Shown: piece by piece, positions 23,258 to 27,130 of the stretch
How the letters are laid out: each line of letters begins with the position of its first letter
Position numbering within the stretch: position 1 is the first letter of the stretch
Origin: Desulfovibrio oxyclinae DSM 11498
GTDB lineage: Bacteria > Desulfobacterota > Desulfovibrionia > Desulfovibrionales > Desulfovibrionaceae
Length of the DNA: 57,888 nt
Direction: 5' to 3'
Assembly (NCBI RefSeq): GCF_000375485.1
Contig: NZ_AQXE01000011.1
Span: forward strand, 77,137 to 135,024
Notes under the pieces: generated by a model
What the model was told of the DNA's origin: nothing
Databases searched by the model: none
What the model saw: only the letters and a program-made list of their open reading frames with translations
Translations under genes and position numbers: made by a program

Positions 23258-23269
23258 ATGGATGGAATC

Positions 23270-23554
23270 ATGAAAGAACACGAAACGGAACGTCTGGCCG
23301 GATACTGCAAGGCACTGGGCCACCCCACGCGGGTGCTCATCCTTCGCAAGCTCATCGAAATCAATCGCTGCACCTGCGGCAGTATCGTGGATGAACTGCC
23401 GCTGGCCCAGTCCACCGTAAGCGCGCACTTAAAGGTCCTGCGAGAATCCGGACTGATCCACGGCGAAATCGAAGGCCCCAAGACCTGCTACTGCGTCAAC
23501 CCCGAAGCCATTTCCGATATGGGGACCCTGATGCAAGCGCTCGGAGAACGATAA
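23270..23554 (+). CDS. ArsR-family metalloregulator preceding hgcA
   Basis: 94-aa winged-helix repressor: ALGHPTRVLILRKLIEI, recognition helix LAQSTVSAHLKVLRESGLI, wing EIEGPKTCYCVN. The segment NRCTCGSIVDEL occupies the place of the ELCVCDL metal site of ArsR/SmtB proteins and holds two Cys; another pair is CYC in the wing. I start at 23270 (GGATGGA upstream); ATG 23258 is in frame but abuts the operator palindrome and lacks a ribosome-binding site. Its TAA overlaps the hgcA ATG by one base (TAATG), so translation is coupled. An ArsR gene before hgcA is, as I recall, known from mercury-methylating Desulfovibrio. Confidence 0.88.
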   Translation: MKEHETERLAGYCKALGHPTRVLILRKLIEINRCTCGSIVDELPLAQSTVSAHLKVLRESGLIHGEIEGPKTCYCVNPEAISDMGTLMQALGER

Positions 23555-24711
23555 TGAATGATCTCAAAGAACTGAACGACGTCATGTTCAATCAGCCAAT
23601 GATGGCTCCCTCGTCGCAAACGGAAGAAATCTGCTGAGGCCCTCAGCCCGACCCCGAGGCCGGGGTCTACGAACGTCCCGGATACGACATCTGCGGTTTC
23701 GTCGAAGAGTTCATGGAAACTCCCGCAGGAACCGTTCCACGCATTTCCTCGAAAATCCGTTTCAAGGACCACTTTGGAACGTTCCTTGTCCGCACGGGCT
23801 TTATACGCACCAACTACCGCGTCACGCCGGGCGTCCACGCTGTGGGCAACCCAGGCCCGGACTCTCCGGTGATTGTCACGGCCAATTACAAACTGACCTT
23901 CGACGTCGTCCGGCGCGATCTCGCCTGTACCGATGTCTGGCTGTTGGTCATTGACACACGCGGCATCAATGTCTGGTGCGCGGCGGGCAAATCCCTGTTC
24001 TCCACGGATGAGGTCATCCGCAAGATACGCTCTTCGGGCCTTGAAAAACTCGTCGGCCACCGTTCGGTCATTCTGCCCCAACTCGGAGCTCCGGGCGTAG
24101 CCGCTCATGAAGTGAGAAAGGCCACCGGCTTCAAGGTGAAATACGGCCCCGTCCGATCCTCGGACCTCAAAGCGTTCATCGAAAACGGCCTGAAGACCAC
24201 GGACGACATGCGCGCCGTATCCTTTACGCTCAAGGAGCGCGCTGAACTGATACCCATTGAAATCGTCATGGCCTGGCGTTGGATTTTGCTTGCCCTGCTC
24301 CTCTTTGTGCTGCTGGGCGGAATAGGGCCATGGGGGTATGACGTTCATGCCGCGTGGTCCCGAGGCTGGGATGCGTTTCTAACCGGCCTTGCGGGATTCC
24401 TGGGCGGCACGGCGCTGGCCCCCCTGCTCATGTCCCGGCTACCCGGACGCATGTTCTGGCTTCATGGCGCGCTTCTGGGGGCAATCGCTGCAGCGTGCAC
24501 GGCGTTCATGGTGGCTTCGGGGCCGGGACCGGTGTTGATCGGTACGGCTGCCGGTTCATTCATGATGATGAATTTCACCGGCTCAACGCCGTTCACCTCG
24601 CCCACAGGGGTTGAACATGAAATGAAACGGGGCATCCCCTTCCAGCTCGTCACCGCGCTGCTCGGACTCGCGCTCTGGATCGTCATGCCCTTTATCACGG
24701 GAGGTGCCTGA
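23554..24711 (+). CDS. hgcA: Mercury methylation corrinoid protein HgcA, apparent selenoprotein
   Basis: 385 aa if UGA at codon 28 (23635-23637) is read as selenocysteine. HgcA carries the methyl group on a corrinoid and passes it to Hg(II). The cap-helix motif N139-VWCAAGK146 with the cobalt-ligand Cys142 is present, inside the corrinoid domain (about residues 60-230), and five membrane helices follow from residue 240. The start at 23554 has GGAG 8 bases upstream and overlaps the arsR stop. Between start and UGA the frame is open. After it, GPQPDPEAGVYERPGYDICGFVEEF is the conserved HgcA N-terminus (from memory HgcA proteins have CCGP here), so the sequence gives Cys-Sec-Gly-Pro. Starting at ATG 23713 would lose this part and has no ribosome-binding site. 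A nonsense mutation or base error is the alternative. Confidence 0.88.
23635..23667 (+). promoter_or_regulatory. UGA codon and candidate bacterial SECIS in hgcA
   Basis: The UGA (23635-23637) is followed after 12 bases by a 6-bp perfect stem GACCCC / GGGGUC (23650-23655, 23662-23667) with the 6-base loop GAGGCC. The loop starts 18 bases after UGA and its first base is G. This meets the bacterial SECIS rules as I remember them: loop 16-37 bases from UGA, G among the first two loop bases, stem of at least 4 bp. Confidence 0.65.
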
Positions 24712-24986
24712 TGAAGGATTTTCGCTACCTTGAAGGAATGGCCACACTCAGTCTCGACACGCAAAAATGCGTCGGGTGCGGCATGTGCCTCGCCGTGTGT
24801 CCCCATGAGGTTTTCCGGCTGGAAGACGGCAAGGTCGTGCTGGCTGACCACGGAGCGTGCATGGAGTGCGGCGCCTGCGCACTGAACTGCCCGGTGGATG
24901 CGGTTTCCGTCACTCCCGGCGTGGGGTGTGCGTCGCTGATCATCAAGCGGTGGCTCGGCATCCGCAGCAGCGGCGGTTGCTGCTGA
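24711..24986 (+). CDS. hgcB: Mercury methylation ferredoxin HgcB
   Basis: 91-aa 2[4Fe-4S] ferredoxin thought to reduce the HgcA corrinoid and hand over Hg(II). Cluster 1 uses Cys20, 23, 26 and 30; cluster 2 uses Cys50, 53, 56 and 60 in the HgcB signature ACMECGAC. The extra conserved Cys73 (GVGCAS) and the C-terminal Cys pair (90-91) are all present. Its ATG overlaps the hgcA stop (TGATG), so the two are translationally coupled. Usual HgcB length is about 95 residues. Confidence 0.95.
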   Translation: MKDFRYLEGMATLSLDTQKCVGCGMCLAVCPHEVFRLEDGKVVLADHGACMECGACALNCPVDAVSVTPGVGCASLIIKRWLGIRSSGGCC

Positions 24987-25099
24987 TAGATAATCCCTAT
25001 GATTCGCCCAGACGGCCATGCCGACAAACGATTTGCCTTCGCACTCCGCTATCGGGGTACACTCCCGGACATTGATGAAACCAATAGGAGGGTTGACCA

Positions 25100-26377
25100 A
25101 TGTCCGAGTCCGCGTATCGCGAAATGTGGGAGAAACTGGACCTCGATCTTGCCGCGCATGACGGCCTGCTTGAAGTCCTCGGCAAATTTTACGGCGACAT
25201 ATACCTATCGCAGAAAGGCCGCCTGAACGGCGCAGAATATCTCGACTTCGTCCTTTCAGAAGTCCACGGCCTGCGCATCAAGGAGCTTCAGGATGCCAAG
25301 GCGCAGGGAAAGAAGGTCATCGGCACCTTTTGCGTATTCGTACCCGAGGAACTGAGCCTTGCGGCCGACGCGGTGCAGGTCGGCCTGTGTTCCGGCGCGG
25401 ACGCGGGCAAGGAACTGGCGGAAGAGATCGTCCCGCGCAACACCTGTGCGCTCATCAAGTCCTTCATAGGCTTCAAGCTCGCCAAGCTCTGCCCCTTTAC
25501 CGAATCCTGCGACATGATCGTGGGCGAGACCACCTGCGACGGCAAGAAAAAAGCCTACGAGACCTTCGGCGAGCACGTGGACAACATGTACGTCATGGAG
25601 GTTCCGCAGCGCAAGGAAGCCTCGGACCGCGAGCTTTGGAAATCCGAAGTGCTGCGCTTCAAGGACTCCCTCGAAGAACTGACCGGCGTCGAAATCACCG
25701 CTGAACGGCTCAAGGAAGGCATTCGCATCGTCAATGAAAAGCGGCGCGCCCTGCAGCGGCTGAACGCCCTGCGCGCGGCGGTACCCACCCCGATTTCCGG
25801 CCGCGACGTGCTTCTGGTCAACCAGATCAGCTTCTATGACGACCCTGTCCGTTTCACCGAAAACATCAACAAGCTCTGCGATGAAATTGAGGAACGCATT
25901 GCCGCATCCGAGGGCGTGGTCCCCGAGGGAACCCCGCGCGTCATGCTTTCCGGCTGTCCCATGGCCGTGCCCAACTGGAAGCTGCCCTGGCTCATCGAAA
26001 GCTCGGGCGCGGTCATCGTGGGCGAGGAATCCTGCATCGGCACCCGCAACTCTCGCGACCTGGTGGACGAATCCGGTGAAACGCTGGAGGAAATGCTCGA
26101 CAACATCGCGGACCGTTACATGAAGATCGACTGCGCCTGTTTCACCCCCAACGACGAACGCCCGCAGAATGTGGAATCCATGGCGCGCGAACTCGACGTT
26201 GACGGAGTCATTCAGTACGCGCTCATGTTCTGCCAGCCCTACACGCACGAATCCATCAAGCTGGACCGGCGCCTCTCCGAAGCGGAAATCCCGGTGCTTG
26301 GCATCGAGACCGACTACTCCATGGAAGACGCGGAACAACTCAAGACGCGCGTGGAAGCGTTTCTGGAGATGATGTAG
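25100..26377 (+). CDS. Double-cubane-cluster protein (2-hydroxyacyl-CoA dehydratase/BcrC-like family)
   Basis: 425-aa iron-sulfur protein of the HgdB/BcrC family, of the kind described as double-cubane-cluster proteins that carry an [8Fe-9S] centre and reduce small molecules at very low potential. Candidate cluster cysteines are in GTFCVFVPEEL, RNTCALIKSF, LCPFTESCDMIVGETTCDGKKK (two positions), SGCPMAVPNWKLPWLIE and GEESCIGTRN. AGGAGGG precedes the ATG. Its activator ATPase follows with no gap. It lies 113 bases after hgcB without a clear terminator, so read-through from the hgcAB promoter is possible. Physiological substrate unknown. Confidence 0.85.
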   Translation: MSESAYREMWEKLDLDLAAHDGLLEVLGKFYGDIYLSQKGRLNGAEYLDFVLSEVHGLRIKELQDAKAQGKKVIGTFCVFVPEELSLAADAVQVGLCSGADAGKELAEEIVPRNTCALIKSFIGFKLAKLCPFTESCDMIVGETTCDGKKKAYETFGEHVDNMYVMEVPQRKEASDRELWKSEVLRFKDSLEELTGVEITAERLKEGIRIVNEKRRALQRLNALRAAVPTPISGRDVLLVNQISFYDDPVRFTENINKLCDEIEERIAASEGVVPEGTPRVMLSGCPMAVPNWKLPWLIESSGAVIVGEESCIGTRNSRDLVDESGETLEEMLDNIADRYMKIDCACFTPNDERPQNVESMARELDVDGVIQYALMFCQPYTHESIKLDRRLSEAEIPVLGIETDYSMEDAEQLKTRVEAFLEMM

Positions 26378-27130
26378 ATGATCGCAGGCATCGACATCGG
26401 TTCCAGATCCATGGAACTGGTTCTGCTGGACGACGGCAACATAGTGTCGCAACGCACGCTGCCCACCACCTTCGATCCTGTGGCGCAGCTGCGAAAATTG
26501 CTGGCCGACGTCGCTCCGGAGCGATGCATGGCAACCGGATACGGAAGGGAGCTCGTGCGCGAGGCCGGGCTCCCGTGCCCGGTGGATACCGTCACCGAAA
26601 TCAAAGCTCACGCCACCGGGGCCCATGCGTTACATCCTGAGGCCGTGACGGTTCTTGACATTGGCGGACAGGATACCAAGGCCATATCCCTGAGCAAGGC
26701 CGGAAAGGTGCTCAAGTTCGAAATGAACGACCGGTGCGCCGCCGGAACCGGTAAGTTTCTGGAATACACGGCCGCGGTCTTCCAGATTCCGGTGGAGGAA
26801 TTCGGGGAGTATGCCCTCATGGGAGAGAACGCCCCGGTCATCAACAGCATGTGTACGGTCTTTGCGGAGACGGAGGCCACGTCCCTTATGGCGCGCGGCA
26901 CCCGGCCCGAGGACATCGCCCTGGGACTGCACATGTCCATTGCGCGCCGCACCGTGAACATGCTGCGCCGCGTCGGCGGCAAGCTCCCCGTGGCCTTTGT
27001 CGGCGGCGTGGCGAGAAATCCCTGTATGACATCGCTTCTGCGCCAGCTTCTGAAAGCTGACGGCCCCGACCTTCTCACCCCCGAGGCTCCGGAGATGACC
27101 GGCGCGCTCGGCGCCGCAATGTTGGCCTGA
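26378..27130 (+). CDS. Activator ATPase of the double-cubane protein (BadF/BcrA/HgdC family)
   Basis: 250-aa ASKHA-fold ATPase that injects electrons, driven by ATP hydrolysis, into its partner. The N-terminus IAGIDIGSRSMELVLLD is the phosphate-1 loop and VLDIGGQDTKAI the phosphate-2 loop. The dimer-bridging [4Fe-4S] cysteines are in NDRCAAGTGKFLE and NSMCTVFAETE. Its ATG directly follows the TAG of the double-cubane gene, giving an obligatory operon pair. Confidence 0.92.
   Translation: MIAGIDIGSRSMELVLLDDGNIVSQRTLPTTFDPVAQLRKLLADVAPERCMATGYGRELVREAGLPCPVDTVTEIKAHATGAHALHPEAVTVLDIGGQDTKAISLSKAGKVLKFEMNDRCAAGTGKFLEYTAAVFQIPVEEFGEYALMGENAPVINSMCTVFAETEATSLMARGTRPEDIALGLHMSIARRTVNMLRRVGGKLPVAFVGGVARNPCMTSLLRQLLKADGPDLLTPEAPEMTGALGAAMLA

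Follow-up and report, generated by a model that had tools for sequence, protein, structure and literature searches.

An in-frame UGA beside a cysteine codon in hgcA of Desulfovibrio oxyclinae is probably a selenocysteine codon shared with many related bacteria

HgcAB makes the neurotoxin methylmercury, and one question about it is how Hg(II) gets to the corrinoid. The hgcA gene of Desulfovibrio oxyclinae raises the further question of how an in-frame UGA close to its start is read. In the window, by which we mean the whole stretch of 57,888 nucleotides that was analysed, the frame 23554-24711 (+) translates to MNDLKELNDVMFNQPMMAPSSQTEEIC*GPQPDPEAGVYERPGY..., and its sole internal stop is the TGA at 23635-23637 (+), which is codon 28. 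The initial annotation had placed this codon directly after a Cys codon, and translation bears this out. The surroundings, if read through, are TEEIC-U-GPQPDPEAGVYERPGY, and the proposed selenocysteine would belong to a motif Cys27-Sec28-Gly-Pro in a protein of 385 residues. The read-through protein is HgcA (NCBIfam NF040863, 400.2 bits against a cut-off of 275); its alignment to the family model starts at residue 61, which is model position 1 and past the UGA, and the motif therefore lies outside the model. The cap-helix motif N(V/I)WCA(A/G)GK is present with its Cys as NVWCAAGK, and this Cys142 (23977..23979, +) is the equivalent of Cys93 in HgcA of Pseudodesulfovibrio mercurii ND132 as numbered in PMC7305189. 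The start of hgcA is coupled to the preceding arsR gene, as had been proposed: its ATG overlaps the arsR stop in TAATG, and GGAG stands upstream of it. This arsR gene (23258..23554, +, start possibly at 23270) encodes an ArsR/SmtB-type regulator (NCBIfam NF033788, 65.8 bits, cut-off 55), and hgcB (24711..24986, +), encoding a dicluster ferredoxin (NF040864, 122 bits, cut-off 99), adjoins hgcA at 24711. Judging from comparative sequence data, codon 28 is very probably decoded as selenocysteine.

Homologues were collected from 199 genomes of the family (44 matched), 36 genomes of the genus (22 matched), the best 80 of 505 relatives in the GTDB contig collection, and 395 genomes of the phylum, of which 295 matched, many of them at the corrinoid domain only and with weak E-values. 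The loci used include 30 + 14 regions from the family and 30 + 80 regions from strong matches in the phylum, with short fragments and weak matches excluded. Two of the resulting 244 loci (L157 and L158) have no anchor; removing 12 with an identical 200-residue core from the 242 anchored ones left 230 distinct loci. The site was called in a segment that lies 98-122 residues N-terminal to the cap-helix Cys. Here, 112 loci have a TGA, three of which (L260, L272, and L284) were dropped because they lack a fitting context and hairpin, so that 109 UGA loci stand beside 98 Cys loci. The rest comprise 11 loci with neither UGA nor Cys, 5 without an open N-terminal frame, and 4 that are unreadable. The context is CU in 99 of the 109 UGA loci and CC in 75 of the 98 Cys loci. 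In the single column 114 residues before the cap-helix Cys, 63 of the 230 loci have UGA, 54 have Cys, and none has TAA or TAG; in 33 loci a TGA stands 110 residues before this Cys. The swap of UGA and Cys at a CC motif, which the initial annotation had proposed from the CCGP motif of HgcA proteins, is thus found in other genomes at exactly the same position, and the CC pair itself is borne out: it is present in 113 of the 120 best database matches to the HgcA of the window, the other seven being five proteins that start past the site, one with a single Cys, and one that is too short. The reading of the UGA as selenocysteine is strongly supported by an in-frame UGA that stands beside a Cys and aligns with a Cys of the homologues.

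Within the genus, the site reads TGA in every one of the 20 genomes whose match is near full-length. In one further genome (G211) hgcA is split on two contigs, with the TGA in the N-terminal piece, and in another (G207) only the C-terminal piece was found. The nearest named HgcA among the best 80 of 505 relatives is that of Salidesulfovibrio brasiliensis JCM 12178, which shares 64% identity and has ICUDP at the site. A swap of Sec and Cys has also occurred within one genus in the absence of an adjacent Cys, GUGP in L025 versus GCGM in L064. On an HgcA tree of 229 rows built with a quick method, the label for a proximal Sec requires at least 19 changes, compared to 76 when shuffled, and at least 7 changes are forced by starred branches. 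In general, the predicted Sec site of HgcA turns out to be widespread in related bacteria. The frame and a PGY stretch just past the UGA are kept in the homologues. In the codons just past the UGA, nonsynonymous changes are no commoner than in the core in six of eight species pairs (for example 5/24 past the UGA versus 90/260 in the core between L009 and L068) and commoner in two, and conservation ahead of the UGA is poor in seven of the eight. By these codon changes, the frame past the UGA behaves as coding sequence and the tail before it varies freely. Conservation of the pair in the alignment A4 (at least 90% at both residues in 86 proteins) was rejected as evidence because the 85 added rows had been picked from 204 loci preselected for Sec or Cys at these positions.

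A selenocysteine codon in bacteria should be followed by a SECIS element, and the initial annotation had proposed one. A SECIS-like hairpin is indeed present at 23650..23667 (+) and can be drawn in two ways, either with the stem GACCCC/GGGGTC of 6 bp and the loop GAGGCC, 18 nt past the UGA, or as GACCCCG-AGGC-CGGGGTC with 7 bp, the loop AGGC 19 nt past the UGA, and an energy of -12.8 kcal/mol. The latter fits the bacterial SECIS model given in section 5 of PMC13188914 (loop of 3-9 nt, stem of 4-16 bp, a G within the first two loop bases, a distance of 16-37 nt from the UGA, and an energy of -7.5 or lower). The local fold is no better than that of shuffled sequences: the 56-nt fold gives z = -0.37, 68 of 200 shuffles are equally or more stable, and the centroid of the local fold differs from the proposed hairpin. 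Hairpin energy in the window was therefore dropped as evidence, and the case was made from covariation and from the contrast with Cys loci. A hairpin of -7.5 kcal/mol or lower with its loop 17-23 nt past the codon is found in 78 of 109 UGA loci versus 3 of 98 Cys loci, the latter number rising to 12 with the wider range of 16-37 nt; 31 of the 109 UGA loci miss the -7.5 threshold and 8 of these also miss -5. Covariation was assessed in 60 UGA sequences that have no gaps and share one spacing, with 49 Cys sequences as the control. The six pairs of the hairpin are formed in 84.2% of cells in the UGA set, 34 cells are changed on both sides (shuffled mean 7.5), and the covariation score is 0.311 (shuffled 0.118), with none of 500 shuffles as high in the last two measures. 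All six slid registers of the hairpin score lower on every measure. Two of the five covariation measures are unexceptional, namely the pairs with a double change (39 of 500 shuffles as high) and the pair types (64 of 500). In the Cys sequences, the pairs are formed in 37.1% of cells and there is no excess; the kinship of the sequences inflates such counts, and the Cys loci control for it, being the same gene from largely the same phylum. Thus it is the homologues, with 63 UGA, 54 Cys, neither TAA nor TAG, and a covarying hairpin, and not folding energy, that rule out a chance UGA.

The genes for selenocysteine insertion, whose presence the initial annotation had made a test of its proposal, were found with one exception. 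The genome, a draft of 3.32 Mb in 32 contigs, encodes a tRNA-Sec (selC; 81 bits against a gathering threshold of 47) as well as SelA and SelB above their cut-offs. It also has two genes for the alpha subunit of formate dehydrogenase, both interrupted by a single in-frame TGA that falls in ARIUHS. In contrast, selD, which is required to make selenophosphate, was not found in the 32 contigs, neither by a family search with a positive control nor with the SelD protein of the nearest relative, a search that had no control of its own. The other 35 of the 36 genomes of the genus have selD above the cut-off, each match with one internal TGA. The gene adjoins ykgJ and rfaE in four relatives examined, and here ykgJ and rfaE stand together without it; a contig end as the cause of the missing selD is excluded at this place only. 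In the nearest relative selD has other neighbours, one of which was searched here and gave only a 31%-identical match. The absence of selD is tentatively read as missing sequence because the formate dehydrogenase genes suggest a working selenocysteine pathway.

The predicted selenocysteine site is missing from some database records. In the window, an in-frame ATG downstream of the UGA would give a form of 332 residues (23713..24711, +), the same extent as the 98%-identical database protein P0001 with 332 residues. The cluster of 98%-identical proteins (4 sequences) and an 85%-identical protein all begin past the site, which is what a gene caller would produce if stopped by a UGA. The annotated HgcA starts past the site in all five named UGA-bearing species that were checked (S. 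brasiliensis, P. cashew, P. indicus, P. sediminis, and strain zrk46). With P. indicus HgcA as the query, 83 of the 110 matches not in the list obtained with the HgcA of the window start past the site and 27 have CC. The reference protein shows the same pattern. HgcA of P. mercurii (P0153) is an orthologue with 338 residues that begins with MDGFARTAAG and has its cap Cys at position 93, and the Sec position of its relatives lies 22 residues upstream of the annotated start. From its genus we infer that ND132 hgcA itself contains the UGA. RefSeq may hold corrected HgcA forms, since PMC13188914 cites an accession for the CU form.

What would the extended protein look like, and what could the pair do? 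The predicted model of the 385-residue HgcA, made from an alignment of 86 rows, has a mean pLDDT of 92. Per block of ten residues, the pLDDT is 51-62 for residues 1-30 and 89-90 for residues 31-50, so that the Cys-Sec pair, in this model, stands close to the free tip of an arm that is itself anchored, where an extended segment of confident placement begins. Long helices at residues 264-382 are putative C-terminal membrane helices. Residues 89-210 resemble the corrinoid-binding domain of the CFeSP gamma subunit (2YCL, 2H9A); the likeness is limited to this domain, and the Cys-Sec arm and the membrane helices are outside the match. The best match in a library of solved structures is the 2020 computational model of HgcAB (9A0B, 329 residues), which starts past the Cys-Sec part; this model left out the first nine annotated residues, as described in PMC7305189.

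According to the mechanism that we propose, codon 28 would be read as selenocysteine by SelB and tRNA(Sec), steered by the hairpin 13-30 nt downstream, and the product would be a selenoprotein of 385 residues whose N-terminus carries a Cys-Sec pair in front of the corrinoid domain. The thiolate-selenolate pair could serve as a soft-metal ligand for Hg(II) or a related soft metal, and might keep the bound metal in place to be methylated by the corrinoid or exchanged with Cys73 and the C-terminal Cys residues of HgcB. Cys73 and the C-terminal Cys pair are important for methylation in ND132 (PMC7305189), and in the HgcB of the window position 73 (codon 24927-24929) is Cys and not Sec, and the protein ends in CysCys. 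In other lineages Cys would do the same job, and Sec would speed ligand exchange or tighten binding. We regard the explanation as a whole, a Sec-decoded hgcA with an N-terminal Cys-Sec arm, as likely. The role of the pair as a metal ligand, which draws on known soft-metal chemistry, might equally prove right or wrong. The pair, as Cys-Sec or Cys-Cys, is a concrete candidate ligand for Hg(II) that is absent from the annotated HgcA of the five UGA-bearing species checked and from the 2020 HgcAB model. The arm may be non-essential because HgcA of ND132 as annotated lacks it and recombinant ND132 HgcA methylated mercury in lysates (PMC11588087).

The annotated starts could also be taken at face value. 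The UGA would then be a true stop ending a leader peptide of 27 codons that couples hgcA to arsR, and translation would restart at the ATG at 23713 to give the 332-residue HgcA. The database proteins of near-identical and related species do start downstream of the UGA, and P. mercurii HgcA is annotated with 338 residues from the equivalent region, the form used in PMC11588087 and PMC7305189. However, it is hard to imagine why a stop codon should be interchangeable with Cys in an aligned column and never be TAA or TAG, why the frame and the PGY stretch should be retained just past it, and why the hairpin should covary in UGA loci but not in Cys loci. A true stop is therefore very improbable. 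Somewhat less improbable, yet still not what we expect, are two products, with selenium deciding between them: the cell would make the full-length selenoprotein if it has selenium and, if not, start translation downstream to give a shorter HgcA; in-frame start codons are present downstream of the UGA, and the activity of recombinant ND132 HgcA in lysate (PMC11588087) would agree with a functional short form. That the TGA is a sequencing error or a sign of a decayed gene can be practically dismissed. The assembly is a single draft in 32 contigs in which selD is missing, but the TGA is shared by 20 of 20 genomes of the genus in which the match is near full-length, and the 98%- and 85%-identical proteins, which come from other sources, also start past the site.

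Decoding as selenocysteine, which we prefer to these readings, leaves the function of the pair to be weighed. It could be a redox or selenium-sensing element that protects or reactivates the corrinoid, or it could serve another metalloid, and not be a mercury ligand at all. An ArsR regulator gene precedes hgcA here, and an ArsR match is present in 77 of 244 loci, a count in which duplicates are included and many loci are short. On the other hand, the site in the window has no CxxC, and the adjacent CU and CC pairs as well as the single forms GUG and GCG fit metal binding as well. We consider such a role unlikely, though less so than two products.

Selenocysteine seems to occur at other places of the HgcAB system as well. 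Six of seven loci of genus g9 (L037 and L055-L059, not L054) have no proximal Sec and instead carry an upstream CUPPKxP or CUPPRxP, and the hairpin that goes with it has -9.2 to -11.2 kcal/mol in every case. Two further loci have this upstream site and no Sec at the usual one, GCUPPKAPPG in L135 and SCUPPKAPPG in L145, and L060 reads ACUEAQ. In genus g43, two of three loci (L061 and L066, not L062) combine CUGP with an extra upstream in-frame TGA (RFTU) that is followed by a SECIS-like hairpin; these two are candidates for a double-Sec HgcA. In addition, five of the 230 loci (L116, L120, L123, L124, and L147) encode an HgcB with an in-frame UGA at the position of Cys73 (GVGU), with a hairpin loop GGUC or GGUA 17 nt downstream at -5.5 to -6.2 kcal/mol. 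A further in-frame UGA in the HgcB of L120 (SCUDSG) is not followed by a fitting hairpin. The HgcA proteins of these five loci have no proximal Sec, and none of the 93 readable HgcB genes at UGA-HgcA loci has Sec, HgcB being unreadable in 16 more. Mutual exclusion of Sec-HgcA and Sec-HgcB is a lead only and may reflect a single event, because the five Sec-HgcB loci form one clade. Taken together, it could be possible, and we put it forward tentatively and with somewhat more doubt than trust, that HgcA in the phylum generally has an N-terminal Cys/Sec arm, which has been omitted from the reference protein. The selenol would sit at varying places (CUGP, CUPPKxP, RFTU in two loci) and never together with Sec at HgcB Cys73 in the loci seen, as if one selenol per HgcAB sufficed for the metal. 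If the arm is general, the part that naturally captures the metal would be absent from biochemistry and models that used the P. mercurii HgcA of 338 residues. A selenium requirement of bacteria with a UGA-bearing HgcA also becomes testable.

The initial annotation was mistaken in knowing of no described HgcA selenoprotein. The table of prokaryotic selenoproteins in a 2026 review (PMC13188914) contains HgcA (NF040863) with the motif CU and the accession WP_250697417.1 as well as HgcB (NF040864) with the motif GVGU. Its reference for both proteins is Haft & Gwadz 2023, with PLoS Genet 2008 as a further one for HgcA, although none of four terms searched for occurs in the main text of the latter. 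A 2024 PNAS paper (PMC11588087) states that some hgcA and hgcB homologues may be selenoproteins. The HgcA in the table of the review belongs to the same family and has the same Cys-Sec pair as the protein described here, and its CU motif points to the same site. The listed HgcB likewise has Sec in place of a functional Cys of this system but concerns the other subunit, for which the window encodes Cys. Searched by title and the beginning of the abstract, no further paper on selenocysteine or an N-terminal vicinal Cys in HgcA was found. A selenoprotein HgcA is therefore not new as a kind, having already been predicted in print. The additions made here are the breadth of the survey, the covariation, the Sec sites further upstream, and the annotated proteins that start past the site, some of which Haft & Gwadz 2023 may contain.

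Two genes follow directly 3' of hgcAB, at 25100-27130 of the window; the product of one is a double-cubane-cluster reductase (NF040772, 489 bits), that of the other an acyl-CoA dehydratase activase. Such a pair constitutes an ATP-driven low-potential electron source. Reductase and activase are also present in S. brasiliensis (L068), and the reductase is found in the locus of no other genome among the 244 loci. A link of hgcAB to the reductase as a general feature was rejected, being limited to these two genomes (4 locus copies in 244, many loci being short downstream). The hgcB gene itself ends at 24978-24989 with TGC TGC TGA TAG, a tandem stop right after the C-terminal CysCys.
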